From: Gluconobacter sphaericus NBRC 12467
GTDB taxonomy: Bacteria > Pseudomonadota > Alphaproteobacteria > Acetobacterales > Acetobacteraceae
Assembly: GCF_006539125.1 (NCBI RefSeq)
Contig: NZ_BJMK01000006.1
Location: forward strand, 62,001 to 126,000
Reading direction: 5' to 3'
Length of the DNA: 64,000 nucleotides
A program made the translations under genes and the position numbers. A model generated the notes under the pieces. That model was not told where the DNA came from. It worked only from the letters and a program-made list of their open reading frames with translations, and made no database searches. Below, piece by piece: positions 1,287-11,204 of this stretch; the stretch's first letter is position 1; every line of letters begins with the position of its first letter.

Positions 1287-2189
1287 TCAGTCAGATGCGC
1301 CGAGACCTGACTGGTCGACCGGGGTTCCATGAACCTGCACCGTAACCTTTCCAGGTTCTGCCTTTTCAGGGGCGGTCGCTTTAGGCGCGACGCTATCGTC
1401 TCCAGCCTGCTTTGCCGCCACCTGCTCGCTGATGTTTTCCTGCTGTCGAAGGGCCGCAGCCTGTGACTGATGCCCCGCCGCATCGGCCGCATCCGCCGCC
1501 AGAGTAAGTGCCCGGCGCATCCCGCGATAATCCAGCGCATCACGGCGACTTTTCACAACCGACAGGGACTCGCTACTGGCCAGTTCAGGCTGCCCGCGCA
1601 GCAGGTTCAGACGGGCTGTCAGTTCCTGCCGGTCAACCTGTGCGCTGGTTTCACGGAAGGTAGCCAAATCATTCACGCGCTGGGCCAGAACCGTGTCCTG
1701 CCTCAGATCCGCTGCGATCAGACCTGACAGGTAAAGCGCCCGTTCACGAATTCCCATATCCGGAGACTGAAGCGCGCGCGCCACAGCCTGCGAGGCGAAC
1801 ACCGTGTCATGAAGCCTGTACAAGGCAGCCGCGCGAATTACGGCCAGATCGGACGTATCCGAAACACCGCGCAGGCTGAGCGCGGCTTCGGTCTCTCCAA
1901 GACTTTGCAGGGCTTTCTGCGGCTCGTTTTCCGCCAGCAGGACTGCCGCCAGATTGAAACCGGCCTCGTGAATGGACGCCGCATCATCGCGCATCAGAGC
2001 ACGGTCCATCGCGGTGCGATACTGAGCCTCAGCCTGTGTGGCCTGTCCGATCCCATAGACGCTCTTGCCGGTATCCATGGCATCTTCATAAGGCTGATCG
2101 GGCTTTGGCCCCTTCGTCGCGATTGAAGACGAGCAGCCGCCCAGCGTCAGGACCATCAGGCCCGTGCAGGCCAAAAGAACACACTTCAT
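1287..2189 (-). CDS. Helical (TPR-like) outer-membrane-type lipoprotein of the Mla-like operon
   Basis: A 300-residue protein begins with a lipoprotein signal peptide ending in the lipobox LGGC at about residue 18. The residues after the cysteine are serines, not aspartate, so by the Lol rule it should go to the outer membrane. The body is rich in alanine, leucine and glutamine and reads as stacked helical pairs of TPR type (for example NLAAVLLAENEPQKALQSLGE). The last 50 residues look flexible. The frame is open 23 codons upstream, but the ATG at 2189 is chosen because it starts the signal peptide and overlaps the MCE gene stop in an ATGA. I infer that it is the outer-membrane partner of the upstream MCE/MlaE proteins, in the place of MlaA or an OM lipoprotein. 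No specific family is recognised. Confidence 0.75.
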   Translation of the reverse strand: MKCVLLACTGLMVLTLGGCSSSIATKGPKPDQPYEDAMDTGKSVYGIGQATQAEAQYRTAMDRALMRDDAASIHEAGFNLAAVLLAENEPQKALQSLGETEAALSLRGVSDTSDLAVIRAAALYRLHDTVFASQAVARALQSPDMGIRERALYLSGLIAADLRQDTVLAQRVNDLATFRETSAQVDRQELTARLNLLRGQPELASSESLSVVKSRRDALDYRGMRRALTLAADAADAAGHQSQAAALRQQENISEQVAAKQAGDDSVAPKATAPEKAEPGKVTVQVHGTPVDQSGLGASD

Positions 2190-3142
2190 GGCCGCACCGC
2201 CTGCGCCGGCAGACGACGCGAGGGCTCCTGCTTGCTGCCCCCGCCACCCAGCAACCACAATCCACGCAGCTGATCCGTCAGCTTGCGCAGGCTGCTCGCA
2301 CTGGCTTCCGCCTGAGCCAGAAGAGCCGGAAGCTGCGCCATGGCCGTATTGGCATGCGCCACGGTCTGCTGGACCTGCGGCATGCTCTGACGCAGGCTTG
2401 CCGTCGCGGCCCGTGCATTGGCCATCGTTCCATCCACCTTCGTCATGACGTCGCCTGCCTGCTTTTCAATGGGTCTGAGATCCGCGATGACAGCATCGAG
2501 ATGAGCCAGCGCAGCATTGGCCTTGTCGAGTACGTCATCCTTGACCAGCAGTCCGCCGATCGTGCCCTGCCCCTTGCGCATGTCTGTCAGCATGTCGTTG
2601 ACCTGCGTTGTAATGAGTTGGACGTTGTTCATGGCTGGTACGAGCTTGTTGCGCAGATCCACGACGGTCTGAGTAATCACATCCGCCGGATTGGCCTCAA
2701 CCGTCGCCTGAAGGACTGCGTAATCCCAGTCGAGCGGCTTGCCCTGACCCCGGCCCAGTTCAATGTAACTTGCGCCCGCCACGATCAGACGATGGCGAAT
2801 GATGGCCGTGCTGTCCTGACGGATAAAGTTGGCGAACTGCGGGTCCAAATCCCCTTCCGCATACATCCGCCCTGTCTCGTTGAGCTTCAGGCGCCGGATT
2901 TCACCCGCATGGACGCCCATGACCTCGATATCGTTACCAATCGCGAGCCCTGCCACGCCGCTCTCGGGTAGCACGAAATGGAGTTTCTTTTCCGGCGTCA
3001 GCCACTGTCGCAGGAAACCGGCCTCCACGACGGCGACCGAAAACATGACAATTGCGGCAAGGACAAGCAGCCCGACCCATTCATCCGCATAGCGGTTCTG
3101 AAAGAGCGGACGGGCGGTTTCGGTCTGGCGTACGCGAAACAT
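2186..3142 (-). CDS. MCE-domain protein (MlaD family)
   Basis: This 318-residue protein has one N-terminal membrane helix (about residues 22-45), then an MCE domain (about 50-130) with the family pattern SGVAGLAIGNDIEVMGVHAGEI. A long helical C-terminal region follows (about 150-300), containing VNDMLTDMRKGQGTIGGLLVKDD, a sequence pattern common after MCE domains. MCE proteins form hexameric rings in the periplasm that carry lipids between membranes. E. coli MlaD is much shorter, so the long helical tail suggests a needle-like or tunnel-forming version. The start overlaps the upstream ATPase-like gene by one base (TGATG), and the 3' end overlaps the lipoprotein by four, so translation is probably coupled. 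Confidence 0.9.
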   Translation of the reverse strand: MFRVRQTETARPLFQNRYADEWVGLLVLAAIVMFSVAVVEAGFLRQWLTPEKKLHFVLPESGVAGLAIGNDIEVMGVHAGEIRRLKLNETGRMYAEGDLDPQFANFIRQDSTAIIRHRLIVAGASYIELGRGQGKPLDWDYAVLQATVEANPADVITQTVVDLRNKLVPAMNNVQLITTQVNDMLTDMRKGQGTIGGLLVKDDVLDKANAALAHLDAVIADLRPIEKQAGDVMTKVDGTMANARAATASLRQSMPQVQQTVAHANTAMAQLPALLAQAEASASSLRKLTDQLRGLWLLGGGGSKQEPSRRLPAQAVRP

Positions 3143-3861
3143 CAGGAACCTCGCATCGAAAACAGTCCGTCATCATAAAGGCGCAGGCGGATGGTGGCGT
3201 CGGACGCATAATCCCCCCACCCGCTTTCATCCGGAGCCATCCACACAACCGCGCATCCCCGGTCCCGCAGATCGGTCACGAGAGACAGGAACGCATTCAT
3301 CAGACCGGCCGAGGCCCCTTCCATCGGATGCTCCAGCAGCAGCAGCGCCGGCTCGCCCATCATGGCCCGCACACAGGCCGCGCGCTGGCGGTCCATGGCC
3401 GACAGGCGGTTCGGCGGGATTACCGGAAGGCCAGGCAAACCAAGCCGGACGGCAAGATGCACAGCCTGGGACTGAAGCCTGTCGATCGGGATGCGTGTAT
3501 GGTGCAGTTGTGGCCACAGAATGTTCATATGCGTCCCGTACAGGTCCACCCATCCGCCCGTCATCACAACCCGTCCGATCCGACCCCGCAGCGCGTTGCT
3601 GCGCCGTTCATCGAGGTCGGCCCAGTCCAGCCCCATGCAACGGACATGGCCATCGCCCAGCGGAATGAGACCAACGCACATATCGGCAAACAGCGCCGCC
3701 TGGCCCATGTCCCGACACTCGATCAGGGCGCATTCTCCAGCATTGAGACGCAGGTTGTAACGGCTCGAAACCAGCCCGCTCTCATCGAACTGCGGCTTGG
3801 CATCCAGCAGTTCTAGCCGGGCGTCCAGCGTATTCGGTAAGACGTCGTCAATCTCAGCCAT
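3142..3861 (-). CDS. Degenerate MlaF-type ABC protein lacking ATPase motifs
   Basis: Its position between MlaE and MlaD genes and the overall pattern identify a 239-residue ABC ATPase homologue, but the catalytic motifs are gone. The Walker A slot reads IECRDMGQAAL, with no GxxGxGKS/T. The Q-loop Gln is replaced near VVMTGGWVDLY. The signature reads LSAMDRQR instead of LSGGxxQR. Walker B reads LLLLEHP instead of LLLLDEP. The switch His is missing (VVWMAPDE). The ATG at 3861 is chosen over a frame extending to 3999 because the extra residues are the shadow of the permease gene and MAEIDD gives a normal 8-bp overlap. It cannot be expected to hydrolyse ATP. The frame is intact and the spacing is operonic, which argues for a retained structural or regulatory role rather than decay. 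Confidence 0.8.
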   Translation of the reverse strand: MAEIDDVLPNTLDARLELLDAKPQFDESGLVSSRYNLRLNAGECALIECRDMGQAALFADMCVGLIPLGDGHVRCMGLDWADLDERRSNALRGRIGRVVMTGGWVDLYGTHMNILWPQLHHTRIPIDRLQSQAVHLAVRLGLPGLPVIPPNRLSAMDRQRAACVRAMMGEPALLLLEHPMEGASAGLMNAFLSLVTDLRDRGCAVVWMAPDESGWGDYASDATIRLRLYDDGLFSMRGS

Positions 3862-4678
3862 CGAAGCACACACTGAAAACGACGTTGATAACCATGATGG
3901 AGAGCATACCGCGCGCAAACCCGCGCGGCAGCATGCTCGACAGATCGTCCTCAGTGGTGACATCCATGCCGGACAGACACGAACACACCCCCACGGCATA
4001 GCCGCTGAAAATGAACTTGGCCGGAATCACGAAATAATCGATCGGCTTCACACTGCTGACGACCTGATCCAGAAACGCCCAGATCGGCATCGTGATTGCA
4101 TCCTCGACACGACAGACGGCATAGCCAACAAGAAGAGCTGTCATGCTGAAAATGATGCCAAGGGTGAAGCCACTGATCGTCATGGCGAGGCTGCGCGGCA
4201 GCAGGAACGAGATGAACGGATCAACCCCCATTCCGGTCATGGCGCGCATCTGTCCCCCCGTCGTGAGCGTGCCGAGTTCGGTGAGCATCAGCATACCCGA
4301 CCGCCCCAGCAGGATCACGCCAACCAACACCGGCGCAATCTCGCGCACCAGAACCGTAGAGAGGATGGAACCGGTCATCTGTGCCATACCCGCGAAACCG
4401 AGCCAGTAGACGGTCTGCGCCACAATGCCGAAACCCGTTAGTGCCGCCGTCACCAGCGTACTGAGAATACCACCACCGACTGCCTGATGCAGAGAAGCCC
4501 AGAACTCAATCCTCACCGTCCGCCGCCATGTCGTCAGCCGCGTCGCCTCGCGCATGATTCCCCAGCCGGCGCCGATCATCATGAGCGTAAAACGCATCTG
4601 CGTGCGGGAAAAATACCCCAAATGCACCAGCATGCTCCGGACCATCGTGATCCGGTCAAGATTGCGCAGCCCTTTCAT
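3854..4678 (-). CDS. MlaE-family ABC transporter permease
   Basis: This 274-residue integral membrane protein has five to six hydrophobic segments and the conserved MlaE core around VLVREIAPVLVGVILLGRSGM (about residues 130-150), followed by a GGQMRAMTGMGVDP loop. MlaE dimers sit in the inner membrane between an MlaF ATPase and an MlaD ring and move phospholipids. The start overlaps the upstream sensor gene stop in an ATGA, and the end overlaps the MlaF-like gene by 8 bp. Its usual ATPase partner here is the degenerate protein, so the energy source is unclear. Confidence 0.92.
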   Translation of the reverse strand: MKGLRNLDRITMVRSMLVHLGYFSRTQMRFTLMMIGAGWGIMREATRLTTWRRTVRIEFWASLHQAVGGGILSTLVTAALTGFGIVAQTVYWLGFAGMAQMTGSILSTVLVREIAPVLVGVILLGRSGMLMLTELGTLTTGGQMRAMTGMGVDPFISFLLPRSLAMTISGFTLGIIFSMTALLVGYAVCRVEDAITMPIWAFLDQVVSSVKPIDYFVIPAKFIFSGYAVGVCSCLSGMDVTTEDDLSSMLPRGFARGMLSIMVINVVFSVCFDG

Positions 4679-6993
4679 CGGCGCCCCGCCAGCACAAAGC
4701 TGCGGGTAATGCCGCTGTTAGGCAGATAGAACATACCCCGCGCCCGAAAGAGAAAATGCTCGCGCAGGATCATATAGGCCTGTTCGGACACCTGGATCGT
4801 TCCTGCGTCCGGCGCGCTGCCGGTCAGGAGTTCGGCACCATTGAGCGCATCGCCCCAGATGTTGAAGACCGAAGGCGATTCACCCAGCTCCGAAGCCATG
4901 ACCGAGCCGACATCCATGCCGATCCGGAAAACAGGATCCAGATCCGCCGCAGCCAGCGAGGACAGGCAGGCCTCACGGATCGAAACCGCAGCGTCTGCCA
5001 GCCTCACCGCAGCCGAGGGGTCCGGCGTCTGCGAGCAGCCGCCCACGAGGACGAGCCGGTTGCTCACGACCTGAACGGAGAACAACCCGCTGTCACGCGC
5101 GATTTTCTGGATTTCCAGACTAAGCGTACGGATGACATTCATGGCGCGCGCAATGCTGTCTCGGTCCGGCGCATAGGGGTCTACAAAGGAAATGACCATA
5201 ACCGGAACCTGCGGATACACACCCGCTGCAACCGGTTCACCAACCGTGGCCGACGGCTCCAGAAGAAAGCCTTCGTCAAACCGCGTGTCGTGTTTTTCGG
5301 TTGGTATCGCCAGGCCGGAGGAACCCTCGCCCGCCGCCGCATCGAACGGATTGGCAAAACGCAGGGCCACGATAGAACCTACGATGGCGATGATGTGCTC
5401 CATTGTCTCCGGCTGCCCCGGATCTTCCAGAACGATCGCGCCAACGGTCTTGTGCGCATTGCGAACCGGCTGGAACAGCAGCGTACTCGCCCCTACGGAC
5501 CGCATGATGACGCGTTGGAAGTGCTGGGTGCGCTCGTCCTGCGACGCATCCGCAATCGACAGGGTGTGCCCCTCGTCCAGAGCTTCGAACAGCTTACCAT
5601 TGTCTCGTCGTCCGATCTCGACACCCGTGCTATGCACGTCGCGCGACGGATCGAAAGCATCTTCGCAGAGCAAACGATCCCCGTCCGGCAGCAGGCGCCA
5701 CAGGCTGGCGCGTCGCGCGCTGGTCCGTGCCGTCAGGGCCTCCGTCAGGATCGGCACCTCGTTCGTAGGGTCGAACAGGTCCGGCGTGCTGGCAATTTCC
5801 AGCAGGGAAGCGTTTTCCGCCTTCACCTGCTCCCGTCCCCTCTGAAGCCGCTTTCTCAGACGTTCCACATGCCGCCCCTGCGCGACCAGCGCTAGCGCCA
5901 GCACCGAAGCCAGTCCGACGACCAGCAGCGAGAACCCGATATTCTGCCGCCGGGCCGTCTGGGCAAAATCGGCAAAATCACTTTCCGGCGCATTCAGCAG
6001 CAGCACCCAGTGCCGATGCACAAACGGCAGCTCGGTAGCGATAGTGACGTAATTCTTGCCCCGTGCCTGCACCACGCCCGTCCCAGGGCCCTTAATGCGA
6101 AAGCGGTTGAGCGCATGGGTGAAAACGGGCTGTGTCTTGGGATCAAGGAACACATTCCCTGGATCGAAGGTTTTCGGATCCTGCCCGGCTACGACATTGT
6201 GCCCGGCTATGATCTGGCCGTGCATGTCCACGATCACGGCCTGTCCGCTGCGCCCGACCTGAAGCTTGTTGAGAAAGGACGTCAGCTGGTTCAGGGAAAT
6301 ATTGATCGCAAAAACCGATTTGTGTCCGTCATGTCCGTCAAAGGCGATCGAGGCCGTGATGATGAACTGGCGCGTCGAAATATAAGCATAGGGATCAGTC
6401 CAATGGAGCTGCCGCTCCGGATCGTTCTGATGCTTTACAGCTTTGGCGAACCATGGGCGGGTGACGACATTATAGCCTTCCGCCGGATCTGCGCCTTCGC
6501 CCGTGATGTTACCGTCCTTGTCCGTGTAGACGTGATGATAGACCTGCTTGCCGTCATCAGTCTGGAAATGAGTCTGCTCGAACCCGTCCTGACCATGCCG
6601 CGTGATCATCCAGAACTGGCCCTGATCATTCGCGATATAGAAACTGTCTACCTGCGGCGTATGCGTCAGGATGGAGCGTCCGTAGAGCATGAACGTGTCA
6701 GGCGTAGTGTTGGTCAGCGTATCGCGCAACATGTCCTGCGCGATCAGGGCGCCAATAGAGGCCGGGGCCAGATAATCGCTAACCTCCTGCGTCACATAGC
6801 GTTGCTGGCTGCGCAGAAGATCGTTGGACAGTGAAATCGCGCCCTGGCGGGTCGTCTGGTAATTATGAAGGCTGATGCCTGTAATCGCAGCGATGACCAG
6901 AAGCACGCCCACGAAAGGCCCCAGGATCTGGAAGATCCGGCGCCGGTCACTGGCAGGATTCTGGGTGGGATTCACGATTTCTGCGGCTGACAA
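4675..6993 (-). CDS. Membrane sensor: Cache-type domain, GAF-like domain, degenerate class III cyclase domain
   Basis: A 772-residue protein if translation starts at the TTG at 6993, which has GGAG ten bases upstream; a GTG at 6975 is an alternative. The frame opens further to 7290, but that part overlaps ygfZ and looks non-coding. Layout: membrane helix at about 22-43, a large periplasmic Cache-like sensor to about 345, a second helix at 352-372, a coiled linker, a GAF-like domain at about 400-545, and a C-terminal nucleotidyl cyclase fold at about 595-770. The cyclase keeps FVD near 603, RIGMDVG near 690 and WGDALN near 712. The second metal Asp is replaced (VVSNRL near 643), and the transition-state Arg after the Asn is Leu (NGAELL). 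It is probably inactive or altered in chemistry. It heads the Mla-like operon and overlaps the permease in an ATGA. Confidence 0.8.
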   Translation of the reverse strand: MSAAEIVNPTQNPASDRRRIFQILGPFVGVLLVIAAITGISLHNYQTTRQGAISLSNDLLRSQQRYVTQEVSDYLAPASIGALIAQDMLRDTLTNTTPDTFMLYGRSILTHTPQVDSFYIANDQGQFWMITRHGQDGFEQTHFQTDDGKQVYHHVYTDKDGNITGEGADPAEGYNVVTRPWFAKAVKHQNDPERQLHWTDPYAYISTRQFIITASIAFDGHDGHKSVFAINISLNQLTSFLNKLQVGRSGQAVIVDMHGQIIAGHNVVAGQDPKTFDPGNVFLDPKTQPVFTHALNRFRIKGPGTGVVQARGKNYVTIATELPFVHRHWVLLLNAPESDFADFAQTARRQNIGFSLLVVGLASVLALALVAQGRHVERLRKRLQRGREQVKAENASLLEIASTPDLFDPTNEVPILTEALTARTSARRASLWRLLPDGDRLLCEDAFDPSRDVHSTGVEIGRRDNGKLFEALDEGHTLSIADASQDERTQHFQRVIMRSVGASTLLFQPVRNAHKTVGAIVLEDPGQPETMEHIIAIVGSIVALRFANPFDAAAGEGSSGLAIPTEKHDTRFDEGFLLEPSATVGEPVAAGVYPQVPVMVISFVDPYAPDRDSIARAMNVIRTLSLEIQKIARDSGLFSVQVVSNRLVLVGGCSQTPDPSAAVRLADAAVSIREACLSSLAAADLDPVFRIGMDVGSVMASELGESPSVFNIWGDALNGAELLTGSAPDAGTIQVSEQAYMILREHFLFRARGMFYLPNSGITRSFVLAGRR

Positions 6994-7269
6994 CGTTCTT
7001 TCACTCCGAACAGAGACGGGATCGCGGAACAGGGCCGTACTACCACGATAAGCCAATATCCTCCGACTATTACCAGACTGCAACCCACAGTCATGAACTG
7101 AAACACGTCTGCACGTCCAAAGTTTACTGTTCCCACATAATCCAGTCAGAGATCTTCCGCGCACTCCATCCCGACGCAAAGATGGCGGGTGAAGGATTTG
7201 CCCGCTATGGTCAGGCGCTTTTCCAGCGGGGTAGTTTTGCTGGAAGCCGTCGGAACAGCGGTGTCTCAC

Positions 7270-8082
7270 ATGCACGAATATCTTCTTCACCGCGCCGTCC
7301 TGTCTTTTACGGGAGCGGACCGCGCCAGCTTTCTTCAGGGACTCATCACCAATGACGTCCAGGACCTGACGGACACGACAGCCGTCTGGAGCGCGTTACT
7401 CACACCGCAGGGACGCTGGCTGAGCGAATTCTTCCTGTATGCCACGCCTGATCGCATCCTGATGGACTGCCCGGCCGATCACACGGAGATGCTCACCAAG
7501 CGCCTCTCCCGCTTCCGTCTGCGCGCGGACGTGCAGATCGAGAGCACACCCTTTCAGGTCGTCACAGGCGCGGAAGGCTGCCAAATTCCGCAAAATATCC
7601 TCACAAGCGCCCCGGACCCGCGCTGCGACGGTGCAGGATGGCGAGCCATCGTGACCGAACCTGACCAAAGCGGCGAAACGGCTGCCGATTTTCTGGAACG
7701 TCGCCTGACGCTCGGCCTGCCAGACGTCATGGACTTCGAAAGCGAGCAGACACTGGCGCTCGAAGCCGACATGGACCTGCTACACGGCGTGTCTTGGAAA
7801 AAGGGCTGCTATATGGGGCAGGAGCTCACCGCGCGCACCCATTACCGCGGCCTCGTCAAACGCCGCCTTCTGCCCGTTACGCTGTCAGACGGTAAATTCC
7901 CGGACGAAGGCGGCGTCATCGTTTCCGGAGAGCGTGAAGTCGGTGACATCCGCTCCCGCAACGGCGATCGGGCGCTCGCGATGCTGCGACGTGACGCTTG
8001 GTCCGCATCGGATCTGACATGCAACGGGCAGCCGCTTTCTGTAGTCTGGCCCATTTGGTTTCCTGAGGAGATGCGTGCGTGA
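7270..8082 (+). CDS. ygfZ: Folate-binding YgfZ/GcvT-like protein, iron-sulfur cluster repair
   Basis: This 270-residue protein carries the YgfZ signature K-G-C-Y-x-G-Q-E (about residues 177-185) followed by THYRG. The N-terminus reads FTGADRASFLQGLITNDV, as in this family and the aminomethyltransferase GcvT. YgfZ binds tetrahydrofolate and supports assembly or repair of certain Fe-S enzymes, including MiaB, which is encoded later in this window. The ATG at 7270 is used because homologous sequence begins at MHEYLL; the frame is open 27 codons further up. The stop overlaps the GTG start of hisI. Confidence 0.88.
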   Translation: MHEYLLHRAVLSFTGADRASFLQGLITNDVQDLTDTTAVWSALLTPQGRWLSEFFLYATPDRILMDCPADHTEMLTKRLSRFRLRADVQIESTPFQVVTGAEGCQIPQNILTSAPDPRCDGAGWRAIVTEPDQSGETAADFLERRLTLGLPDVMDFESEQTLALEADMDLLHGVSWKKGCYMGQELTARTHYRGLVKRRLLPVTLSDGKFPDEGGVIVSGEREVGDIRSRNGDRALAMLRRDAWSASDLTCNGQPLSVVWPIWFPEEMRA

Positions 8083-8489
8083 GCTATGTTCCCCCCACCC
8101 CGTCCATTATCGATGACATCATCGCGCAGGTGAAGTTCGATGCGAACGGCCTGATTTCCGCGATTGCGCAGGCACCGGATGGCGTGGTGCTGATGCTGGC
8201 CTGGATGAACGCAGACGCCCTGCGCGAGACGCTTCTGACGGGCCGAGTCTGCTACTGGTCGCGCAGTCGCCAAAAATTGTGGCGCAAGGGCGAGACCTCG
8301 GGCCAGCAGCAGAAACTCATCGAAGCGCGGCTGGACTGTGACATGGACGCCGTTCTCATGGTCGTCGACCAGACCGGCGTGGCCTGCCACACCGGGCGCC
8401 GGAGCTGTTTCTATCACGGAGTGACACCGGAGGGGCTGCGCGATACCGCACAGCCCGAAATCAGTGCCGAAGAACTTTACGGCCGCTGA
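8079..8489 (+). CDS. hisI: Phosphoribosyl-AMP cyclohydrolase
   Basis: This 136-residue HisI catalyses the third step of histidine synthesis, opening the purine ring of PR-AMP. It contains the family core CYWSRSRQKLWRKGETSG and the metal-binding cysteines in LDCDMD, GVACHTGRRSCFYH. It starts with GTG at 8079, overlapping the ygfZ stop (GTGA), with a clear GAGGAG eight bases upstream. It is a stand-alone HisI without the HisE domain. The 3' end overlaps the convergent RNase T2 gene by 13 bp. Confidence 0.95.
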   Translation: MSYVPPTPSIIDDIIAQVKFDANGLISAIAQAPDGVVLMLAWMNADALRETLLTGRVCYWSRSRQKLWRKGETSGQQQKLIEARLDCDMDAVLMVVDQTGVACHTGRRSCFYHGVTPEGLRDTAQPEISAEELYGR

Positions 8490-9241
8490 TCAGCCACAAA
8501 CGGTGCAGTCCAGCCCGGCACGAGGAACGTAGCCGGGCAGCCGTTCTGGTCGTTGGGTGAGGACAGATAGGCGCCTTCATAGGGGAAACGCGACAGCTTC
8601 TTCGGATCCAGCGTGAACCAAAGCTGCGTCAGAACCATCTGCCCGTTATGGGCAGGTTCGCAACGGACCTGAAGAGCGCGGGTGTCCCCGACATTCATCA
8701 AACGCGCGAAAGTCGCCAGCATGTCATCACGCTTGACCTGAAATCCGGCCTGCTGCGACAGCCATAGCCCGAACGCCGAGGCTGCGAACCGATCCCGCAT
8801 TTCCATGGATGTGACGAAAAAGCGGTCTGCATCATAGCCGAAGCAGCGGGCATGCTTGGTATATTCATGCATGTAAAGCGGCTTTTTCAGGTGCGGCACA
8901 ACACCACGCAGCGCCTCGACGGTTGTCGGCAGGAGCTTCGGCGGCGTATCATTGTGATCATAGAGATCACAGCCTTTGGACCACCATTCCTGCACTGGCA
9001 CGCCCTGTGCTTCCAGACTATGCGGCTCGGACGCCCAAAGTCCGTGCAGACCGATCGAGATACGATGCGTCTGGTCCCATTCACATCCTCCGCCCGTGGC
9101 ACAGAAACCCGGCTGCCAGGTCAGGGCCAGCGTGTCATGCCGGAAATCGGTATGAGCCGTGGGCGTGATCGAAGGACCGGTCGGAGCCTGCGAGGCACAT
9201 CCTCCCAGCAGGAAAAGAGCGGCAAGAACAGAACGCTTCAC
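8477..9241 (-). CDS. Ribonuclease T2 family lipoprotein
   Basis: This 254-residue protein begins with a lipoprotein signal peptide (lipobox LGGC, cysteine at residue 15). It has both RNase T2 active-site motifs: GLHGLW with the catalytic His at about 66, and HEYTKHARC at 125-133. Enzymes of this family cleave RNA without base specificity through a 2',3'-cyclic phosphate and are usually periplasmic or secreted; here the protein should be lipid-anchored. It starts with GTG, overlapping the fghA stop by four bases, so it is probably the last gene of the adhC-fghA unit. Its link to formaldehyde metabolism is not obvious and may be only positional. Confidence 0.88.
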   Translation of the reverse strand: MKRSVLAALFLLGGCASQAPTGPSITPTAHTDFRHDTLALTWQPGFCATGGGCEWDQTHRISIGLHGLWASEPHSLEAQGVPVQEWWSKGCDLYDHNDTPPKLLPTTVEALRGVVPHLKKPLYMHEYTKHARCFGYDADRFFVTSMEMRDRFAASAFGLWLSQQAGFQVKRDDMLATFARLMNVGDTRALQVRCEPAHNGQMVLTQLWFTLDPKKLSRFPYEGAYLSSPNDQNGCPATFLVPGWTAPFVADQRP

Positions 9242-10086
9242 GCAGAAAGCCCTTTGGCATGGTGCGTCAGATGGTCCGCAATGAAACTCTGTATGAACCA
9301 GTAGGAATGGTCATACGCGGCATGTCGGCGCAGTTCGAGGGACTGTCCGCCTTCCTTTGCCGCGGCTTCGAGCGCATCGGGGCAGAGATCCGCCAGATAC
9401 TGGTCCATCAGCCCCTGATCCACGAGAATGGTGGACGGATGGGTATGCTTCGAGCGCAGCAACAGCGTCGGGTCGCAACGCTGCCATTTCATCGGATCGC
9501 CGCCGAAATACGCATCAAACGCCTTCTGCCCCCAGGGCACGGTGCTGGGATGGCAGATTGGTGCGAAAGCCGAAACGGTTTTCCAGCGATCGGGATATTT
9601 CAGTGCCTGAAGCAGTGCCCCCATACCGCCCATGGAATGTCCCATGATGCCGCGACGACTGCCATCCAGCGGATAGAGTCGTTCTGTCAGCGAGGGTAGC
9701 TCCTCGCCGACATAGGTCTCCATCCGGTAGTGGTGGCTCCAGGGTTCGGACGTGGCGTCGATATAGAACCCGGCACCTGACCCCAGATCATAACTGTCAT
9801 CCTCCCCCTTGATGCCTGTATGGCGCGGTGAGGTGTCCGGGGCGACGAGCGCGATGCCATGTTCGGCAGCAAAGCGGATCGCGTTAGCCTTGATAAGGAA
9901 CGTCTCCTGCGTCGCGGTCAGCCCGGCCAGCAGATGAATAACCGGAACCTTTTGACCCGACAGGGCCTCTTTCGGCAGGAAGACCCCAAACGTTGCGGGA
10001 ACACCGAGCGCCTGCGAGTTGTGCCGGACAAAACGCAGAGAGCCATCAAAACAGGCGTGATGCGCCAGAACCTCGATGTCGGACAC
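9238..10086 (-). CDS. fghA: S-formylglutathione hydrolase
   Basis: This 282-residue esterase-D-type alpha/beta hydrolase has the nucleophile elbow GHSMGG (Ser at about 151), LVDQG for the acid, and AYDHSYWF for the His. It hydrolyses S-formylglutathione to formate and glutathione, the step after AdhC. It starts with GTG at 10086, three bases after the adhC stop, with GGAG inside the end of adhC. The pair forms the glutathione-dependent formaldehyde oxidation pathway in the cytoplasm. Confidence 0.94.
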   Translation of the reverse strand: MSDIEVLAHHACFDGSLRFVRHNSQALGVPATFGVFLPKEALSGQKVPVIHLLAGLTATQETFLIKANAIRFAAEHGIALVAPDTSPRHTGIKGEDDSYDLGSGAGFYIDATSEPWSHHYRMETYVGEELPSLTERLYPLDGSRRGIMGHSMGGMGALLQALKYPDRWKTVSAFAPICHPSTVPWGQKAFDAYFGGDPMKWQRCDPTLLLRSKHTHPSTILVDQGLMDQYLADLCPDALEAAAKEGGQSLELRRHAAYDHSYWFIQSFIADHLTHHAKGLSA

Positions 10087-10088
10087 GC

Positions 10089-11204
10089 TCAGTACTCCAC
10101 GACGGTACGAATGCTCTCACCCCGGCTCATCATGTCGAAACCCAGATTGATGTCAGCGAGCTTGAGCTTGTGGGTAATGAGATCGTCGATGTCGATCCGG
10201 CCTTCCATGTACCAGTCCACGATCTGCGGCACATCGGTTCGCCCGCGCGCGCCACCAAATGCCGAGCCGATCCAGCGGCGTCCCGTCACAAGCTGGAACG
10301 GTCGCGTGCTGATTTCCTGCCCTGCCCCGGCCACACCGATAACGCAGGATACGCCCCAGCCACGATGCGCACTCTCCAGCGCCTGACGCATCAGGGTCGG
10401 ATTGCCGACACACTCAAACGTGTAGTCCAGACCACCACCGGTCATCTCGATCAGATGCCCTACAAGGTCGCCATCCGGCCCCAGATCCTTCGGATTCACG
10501 AAATCCGTCATGCCGAACTTTCGGGCAATCGCCTCGCGCTCCGGATTGATGTCGATGCCGATAATCCGGTTGGCGCCGACCATCTTTGCACCCTGAATAA
10601 CGTTGAGGCCAATGCCCCCGAGCCCGAAGACTCCAACCGTCGAGCCAGGCTCCACCTTGGCCGTGAACAGCACGGCGCCAATGCCGGTCGTCACGCCACA
10701 ACCGATATAGCAGACCTTGTCGAACGGCGCGTCGGAGCGGATCTTGGCAAGTGCGATTTCCGGCAGCACTGTGAAATTCGCGAAGGTCGAACAGCCCATA
10801 TAGTGATGGATCGGCTGACCTTTATAAGAGAATCGGGATGTGCCGTCTGGCATCAGGCCCTTGCCCTGAGTGCTGCGGATGGCCGTGCACAGATTGGTCT
10901 TGCGCGACAGGCAAGACGGACATTCCCGGCACTCCGGCGTATAGAGCGGAATGACATGATCACCGGGCTTAAGATGCTTTACCCCGGCCCCGACTTCTCG
11001 AACGATGCCCGCACCCTCATGCCCGAGAATGGCCGGAAACAGTCCCTCAGGGTCCTGTCCGGAGAGCGTGTACTTGTCGGTATGGCACAGACCGGTCGCC
11101 ATGATCTCGACCAGTACTTCCCCGTCGCGGGGGCCTTCAAGCTGAACCGTGTCGATTTCCAGCGGTTTGCCGGCTTCGAACGCAATGGCGGCGATCACAT
11201 CCAT
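10089..11204 (-). CDS. adhC: S-(hydroxymethyl)glutathione dehydrogenase, class III alcohol dehydrogenase
   Basis: This 371-residue zinc-dependent dehydrogenase carries catalytic zinc ligands in GLCHTDKY and GHEGAG, the structural zinc motif [15 protein letters not shown], and the NAD-binding [12 protein letters not shown]. It oxidises the glutathione adduct of formaldehyde and can also act as S-nitrosoglutathione reductase in this family. The frame stays open far upstream (to 12203), but those codons are antisense to the bestrophin-like gene. The ATG at 11204 follows an AGGAG and gives the standard N-terminus. No FrmR-type repressor gene is adjacent. Confidence 0.95.

Follow-up and report, generated by a model that had tools for sequence, protein, structure and literature searches.

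The window analysed here, a stretch of 64,000 nucleotides from Gluconobacter sphaericus NBRC 12467 (Acetobacteraceae; contig NZ_BJMK01000006.1, positions 62,001 to 126,000), carries on its minus strand, from 6993 to 1287, five overlapping open reading frames, whose products are a membrane sensor, a permease of the MlaE family, an MlaF-like protein, an MCE protein and a lipoprotein. The MlaF-like protein is predicted to keep the fold of an ATP-binding cassette (ABC) nucleotide-binding domain and has lost the motifs for ATP binding and hydrolysis; it is called the pseudo-ATPase below. Its gene is under purifying selection, and the five genes are kept together across the family. With close to an even chance, the operon encodes an MCE lipid bridge of the Mpc or Mla kind in which the nucleotide-binding subunit has become structural or regulatory and contact with the sensor sets the gate.

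The pseudo-ATPase

The pseudo-ATPase gene (3142..3861, minus strand, ATG at 3861) encodes 239 amino acids (aa). A relation of its product to MlaF, as the initial annotation had it, is borne out by phmmer (E = 1.3e-8 against MlaF 6xbd), but a working ATPase is not. The top sequence match in the PDB is PhnL (5.8e-10), and the sole Pfam match is to ABC_tran with E = 0.26, a weak value because the ATP-binding motifs are gone. An AlphaFold2 model based on 31 relatives reached a predicted local distance difference test score (pLDDT) of 91.8 and a predicted template modelling score of 0.89. Foldseek returned 1202 matches to this model at E ≤ 0.001; the 50 listed are all ABC ATPases, with E. coli MlaF (6xgz) in third place, and the predicted fold is that of an ABC nucleotide-binding domain.

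Motif residues were counted in 137 distinct orthologous genes, aligned to both MlaF proteins of the G. sphaericus genome, each of which has every one of these residues. The Walker A Lys is kept in none of the 137, Ala standing in its place in 108, and the three Walker A (P-loop) Gly are kept in 0, 1 and 0. The Walker B Asp is present in 3 genes (Glu in 132), the two signature Gly in 13 and 5, and the D-loop Asp in none. Aligned with the two MlaF proteins, the window protein reads CRDMGQAA instead of GxxGxGKS at the Walker A site (3694..3717, minus strand) and LLLLEH at the site of the Walker B Asp and catalytic Glu (3328..3345, minus strand), with E and H in place of D and E. Lys to Ala is the same change as in the E. 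coli MlaF variant K47A, which, like E170Q, does not complement (PMC7367683), and this supports ATP-incompetence. The conserved residues of the pseudo-ATPase include the stretches FADLC-G, GLDW and RGRIGR, which are atypical of MlaF. Judged by its sequence the protein is not an ATPase, and an active MlaF was rejected on the motif loss.

The median ratio of nonsynonymous to synonymous substitution rates (dN/dS) of the pseudo-ATPase gene is 0.117 in 18 species pairs, a rough value, as are those that follow, since many dS values exceed 1. The same pairs gave 0.067 for mlaE, 0.141 for the sensor gene and 0.218 for the lipoprotein gene, and 17 pairs gave 0.074 for the MCE gene. From its dN/dS the pseudo-ATPase gene is maintained by purifying selection and is not decaying. 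A frameshift or sequencing artefact was ruled out, as in many species the frame is uninterrupted and purifying selection acts on it.

Distribution and conservation of the operon

Of 249 genomes sampled in the family, 76 have the pseudo-ATPase at E ≤ 1e-21; the remaining ones gave general ABC matches only, at E ≥ 1e-12. In the order sample it was found in 153 of 299 genomes (E ≤ 1.1e-46), and all those listed belong to the same family. Outside the family it occurs in two genomes (G425 and G740) of 385 sampled in the class; the phylum sample of 349 genomes contained no further one outside the family. Over 219 residues the window protein shows no difference from its counterpart in Gluconobacter oxydans NBRC 14819, and the hosts named among the best 80 matches listed include Gluconobacter, Neokomagataea, Acidomonas, Tanticharoenia, Asaia, Swaminathania, Komagataeibacter, Novacetimonas, Gluconacetobacter, Acetobacter, Lichenicoccus and Plastoroseomonas.

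Two overlapping sets of 76 and 87 loci (163 pooled) were reduced to 137 distinct loci by identical pseudo-ATPase DNA, near-identical strains counting apart; all five genes are present at 131 of these. Profile matches in the first set, which includes the window, placed mlaE, pseudo-ATPase and MCE genes at all 76 loci and the sensor and lipoprotein genes at 75 each, L079 being without a sensor and L070 ending ahead of the lipoprotein. Gene order and strand are the same throughout, with L086 fragmented; the different listing of L072 and L107 merely reflects the sorting of stop-to-stop frames by outer end. The full order is present in 83 of the 87 loci of the second set, the exceptions being L137 and L199, which are cut at a contig end, L217, which has no sensor, and L177, which holds unrelated DNA. 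Both genomes from outside the family (L214, L215) have the five genes in order and no Walker A motif. Conservation of the order in relatives, on which the initial annotation had let its proposal stand or fall, was thus found.

Overlaps join the genes throughout, as had been noted from the sequence: 4 bases between sensor and mlaE, where ATGA serves as stop of the one and start of the other, 8 between mlaE and the pseudo-ATPase gene, 1 between the latter and the MCE gene (TGATG), and 4 between MCE and lipoprotein genes. The start codons behind these figures are the authors' choice among in-frame candidates. At the 131 complete loci the stop of the sensor gene lies within ATGA in 97 cases, GTGA in 19 and TTGA in 7 (123 together), and the MCE stop has a start overlap of this type (ATGA, GTGA or TTGA) in 129, with ATGA in 116. 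A bare NTGA overlap is cheap evidence, because three of the four bases before TGA give a start codon. Stronger evidence is that the block holds together down to identities of 31% (pseudo-ATPase), 26% (sensor) and 27% (permease), in differing surroundings: the divergent neighbour ygfZ was found at only 51 of the 137 loci (phmmer with the window protein, which distant copies may escape), adjoining the sensor gene in 47, against 131 for the five genes. The MlaE clade of this operon (E ≤ 1e-40) occurs in 4 of 190 class genomes, all four of which carry the pseudo-ATPase; the same search with the MlaE profile, which at that cut-off did not extend to weaker relatives, yielded, beyond these carriers, no ancestor with an intact ATPase and the same MlaE type.

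Decay of the operon as a general rule was rejected; the exceptions are one decayed copy (L086, genome G126) and split or short genes at L048, L099, L160 and L207. The decayed copy, at 5853-10333 of its locus, has several broken frames in a genome of 2.0 Mb, and the congener G046 (L071) has unbroken frames for all five genes. At L177 (Komagataeibacter europaeus LMG 18890), positions 1-1300, unrelated DNA lies directly upstream of the pseudo-ATPase gene in place of mlaE and the sensor gene, by either rearrangement or an assembly join.

No RNA element was found by an Rfam scan of the window at gathering scores. Between 900 and 7400 no sigma-70 promoter was found, and the two terminator-like sites in this interval are both intragenic and both score below shuffles. 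Close to the operon (8477-9241, minus strand) is a gene of the RNase T2 family whose product has a lipoprotein-like N-terminus; phmmer located such a gene in the vicinity of the operon at 20 of the 137 loci.

The sensor

The sensor gene (4675..6993, minus strand; TTG at 6993, stop at 4675) encodes 772 aa, with a first transmembrane helix (about aa 20-38), a dCache domain (aa 84-316), a second transmembrane helix (about aa 352-370), a GAF domain (aa 415-538) and a cyclase domain (aa 617-768; 4690..5145, minus strand). Pfam matches are to dCache_1 (5e-16), GAF (5.5e-6) and Guanylate_cyc (2.3e-11), and the hydropathy peaks begin at aa 20 and aa 352. Lying between two transmembrane helices, the dCache domain would by this topology be in the periplasm. 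These coordinates and matches, with those of the other four genes, agree with the operon and domain order first proposed.

Of the cyclase-like output attributed to the sensor, the domain match stands and the active catalytic set does not. Residues were counted in 128 sensors against 5o5k_A (mafft alignment), five short sensors (L067, L086, L099, L160 and L207) and the loci without a sensor being left out, at what we take to be the metal-binding, transition-state and substrate-specifying positions. Just 3 of the 128 have the second metal Asp, 5 the transition-state Arg and 21 the transition-state Asn, and no sensor has more than 2 of the 4 catalytic residues (two metal Asp, transition-state Asn and Arg) of an active class III nucleotide cyclase. 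The first metal position is Asp in 97 sensors, a gap-dependent count, as the HMMER alignment puts Ser there for the window protein. In this protein the second metal Asp is replaced by Asn, the transition-state Arg by Leu, and the substrate-specifying Lys and Asp by Gln and Asn. On these residues the class III cyclase domain is degenerate, which makes cyclic-nucleotide signalling by the sensor unlikely.

At a dCache position where amine-binding dCache domains presumably carry Asp, 101 of 126 sensors have Asn, 17 Asp and 8 Ser; the Asn hints, weakly, at a ligand without an amino group. At E ≤ 1e-20 neither the genome of G. sphaericus nor 23 other genomes of the family yielded a further sensor of this type.

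Permease, MCE protein and lipoprotein

The permease gene (3854..4678, minus strand) encodes 274 aa with a Pfam MlaE match of 1.3e-37, which places the product in the MlaE family; Pfam gave no STAS match in it at E ≤ 1. It is one of three MlaE genes of the genome, and its product shows 19% identity to the product of either of the others. The product of the MCE (MlaD-like) gene (2186..3142, minus strand; 318 aa) has a single Pfam MlaD match (3.5e-9) at aa 63-129, followed by a C-terminal extension of about 190 residues, one transmembrane segment by hydropathy (a single peak), and a match to TIGR00996 at aa 23-281 that is under the family cut-off. No STAS or MlaC match was found among the five operon proteins with Pfam and NCBIfam.

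The lipoprotein gene (1287..2189, minus strand; 300 aa, ATG at 2189) has a lipobox, LGGC-SSS, whose Cys is invariant in 27 chosen, aligned lipoproteins. This upholds the lipoprotein part of the earlier assignment to an outer-membrane type; no Pfam or NCBIfam family matched. The AlphaFold2 model is a TPR solenoid of 12 helices (pLDDT 87.6), and its best Foldseek match is 4r7s, a TPR protein (7.7e-5), one of only 4 matches at E ≤ 0.001. The protein is thus predicted to be a TPR solenoid.

Other MlaE systems of the genome

An Mpc-type operon of the same genome (L088, 7488-11004, contig C27) consists of genes for an MlaE permease, an ATPase, an MlaD protein and an ABC_trans_aux lipoprotein. Its permease has 387 aa and a weak STAS_2 match (5.7e-4, under the Pfam cut-off), its ATPase has an intact P-loop, and its lipoprotein matches ABC_trans_aux with 2e-35. 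A canonical-type MlaE with an intact MlaF is encoded on contig C2 (C2:18248), on which no MlaD match was reported, and two short MlaD-like genes lie on C16 (C16:38979) and C4 (C4:90695); the loci concerned are L001, L004, L005 and L087. The canonical Mla genes of this genome seem to be split across contigs.

Comparison with known systems

Known Mla operons had been taken to be mlaFEDCB in the initial annotation, which is too narrow: the order of Brucella mpcEFDA is permease-ATPase-MCE-lipoprotein (PMC12436622), and the Mpc-like operon just described, with its intact ATPase, is found in the same genome. The Mpc order is that of the operon studied here, with the pseudo-ATPase in the slot of the ATPase. 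A single MCE domain with a long C-terminal extension and the absence of MlaC and MlaA from the operon are also shared. There are differences: the Mpc permease is fused to STAS, MpcF is a well-conserved MlaF homologue, the lipoprotein is PqiC-like and the four genes come without a sensor (PMC12436622), whereas here the permease has no STAS match, the ATPase is dead by its motifs, the lipoprotein has a predicted TPR fold and a sensor gene is present. By comparison with the Mpc-like operon of its own genome, too, both ATP site and STAS domain have been lost from the operon, which differs further by its sensor and its lipoprotein.

With E. coli MlaFEDB (mlaFEDCB) the system shares an MlaE-family permease, an MlaF-related subunit and an MCE protein, and the cytoplasmic regulator MlaB is conceptually replaced by the sensor. 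The E. coli system has a short MlaD, has MlaB, MlaC and MlaA, and has no sensor; here mlaB and mlaC are absent from the operon, and the nucleotide-binding subunit lacks the Walker A, Walker B and H-loop residues of an ATPase. MlaB pulls down MlaF carrying Walker mutations (PMC7367683), so that docking of a regulator does not require an ATP-competent MlaF. PqiABC and LetAB resemble the proposed system as MCE bridges with an inner-membrane protein that lacks an ATPase (PMC12436622); they differ by their PqiA/LetA partner and several MCE domains per protein, against MlaE and a single MCE match here. In heterodimeric ABC exporters such as TM287/288, which have one degenerate site, the loss of catalytic residues from an ABC nucleotide-binding domain is likewise conserved, but one site is still active there (PMC7756269), whereas here the operon's sole nucleotide-binding subunit has no Walker A. 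Open-access full text gave no recognised description of this system, subscription papers, preprints and supplements being outside the scope of the search. Every kind of part is known; the combination is new.

Proposed mechanism and alternatives

A bolder form of the reading given at the outset, put at somewhat less than even odds, is that of an ABC transporter turned into a lipid conduit, independent of ATP and gated by a ligand, with the pseudo-ATPase in the ATPase slot and opening by direct contact with the pseudo-cyclase sensor. In the reading given at the outset, an MlaE-type permease dimer would sit in the inner membrane, an MCE hexamer would cross the periplasm with its extension, and the TPR lipoprotein would dock the bridge at the outer membrane. 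In the place of MlaF, the ATP-incompetent relative would most likely clamp the permease at the coupling helix as a structural or regulatory subunit. Being ATP-incompetent, it would give transfer no power from ATP hydrolysis, and lipids would move passively or by drive from elsewhere. The co-translated sensor would most likely act by direct contact with the pseudo-ATPase or the permease, in the regulatory role proposed for the STAS protein MlaB in Mla, and would open or close the bridge on a periplasmic ligand. In its favour, pairwise protein distances of sensor, permease, pseudo-ATPase and MCE protein correlate at r = 0.94-0.95, and those of the lipoprotein with the other four at r = 0.80-0.87 (126 loci, the five loci with short sensors and those missing a gene being left out), though shared vertical descent also gives such correlation. 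We infer the formation of this complex, its stoichiometry, lipid cargo and direction, as well as the passive movement, the gating and the ligand.

Several observations weigh against this reading. ATP hydrolysis is essential in E. coli MlaFEDB, where K47A and E170Q fail (PMC7367683). The pseudo-ATPase is shorter than E. coli MlaF (239 versus 269 aa), whose C-terminal extension is required for assembly (same source), so that its binding to MlaE is not assured. Some motif residues survive in part: 107 of the 137 genes keep the signature Ser, 28 the Q-loop Gln and 11 the catalytic Glu, and 2 still have the H-loop His. L079 and L217, both of genus g95, have the four transport genes without the sensor, and their genomes (G231, G319) have none elsewhere at E ≤ 1e-20. 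The proposed unity of sensor and transporter is supported by the conserved pairing and qualified by these two genomes: the pseudo-ATPase transporter can persist without the sensor, which is not indispensable everywhere. Finally, all 36 chosen operon-carrying genomes have at least one other MlaE gene, and the genome of G. sphaericus has two intact MlaF proteins, so that an ATPase could be borrowed.

This last point leads to the main rival, in which transport is powered by a canonical MlaF of another operon that attaches to this MlaE either by itself or together with the pseudo-ATPase, the latter being an asymmetric regulatory partner in the manner of heterodimeric ABC exporters. MCE ATPases acting in trans occur in mycobacteria, which, with the MlaE and MlaF genes just counted, speaks for such borrowing. 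A mixed pair would be damaged at both composite sites, one having no Walker A or B and the other facing a signature whose Gly survive in only 13 and 5 of 137 (site composition after PMC7756269); degenerate-site exporters with signature changes nevertheless do work according to the same review, and the argument is not decisive. Identity of this MlaE to the genome's two other MlaE proteins is just 19%, and the pseudo-ATPase and MlaE are co-encoded and co-distributed. Borrowing is given about one chance in four. It is improbable that the pseudo-ATPase serves as a sensor of energy charge, binding nucleotide non-canonically without hydrolysis and locking the permease: the strongly conserved fold, the residues atypical of MlaF and the surviving Q-loop Gln and signature Ser would suit such a role, but with the Walker A Lys, the P-loop Gly, the Walker B Asp and the H-loop His lost almost throughout, no phosphate site is recognisable.

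Two further alternatives separate the sensor from the transporter. Were the sensor an active nucleotide cyclase, the transporter might be merely co-expressed with it or regulated by its second messenger; a clear Guanylate_cyc match and the frequent Asp at the first metal position fit this, but the near-complete loss of the second metal Asp and transition-state Arg, the ceiling of two catalytic residues in four and the dependence of the first position on the alignment leave it very little probability. Alternatively, the overlaps may provide translational coupling for stoichiometric expression only, sensor and transporter having separate jobs. Gene overlaps are common in compact genomes, and the two g95 genomes retain the transporter alone; against this, sensor and transporter stay paired across the family, as they do in two genomes from other families, in differing surroundings, and the operon copy is the sole sensor match at E ≤ 1e-20 in the 24 genomes tested, so that coupling alone is a poor prospect, with roughly one chance in ten.

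Significance

The need for ATP and the direction of lipid movement through MCE bridges are debated. If the conduit reading is true, a natural and widespread MlaE system that encodes no working ATPase, present beside canonical ATP-driven ones in one cell, would offer a direct test. It would also be an unusual case among ABC transporters, in that the sole encoded nucleotide-binding subunit has no ATP site and is still under selection, and the direct wiring of an extracytoplasmic sensor to a lipid transporter would be unusual as well. Many of the host bacteria live in acetic acid and ethanol, against which the outer membrane is the first barrier.

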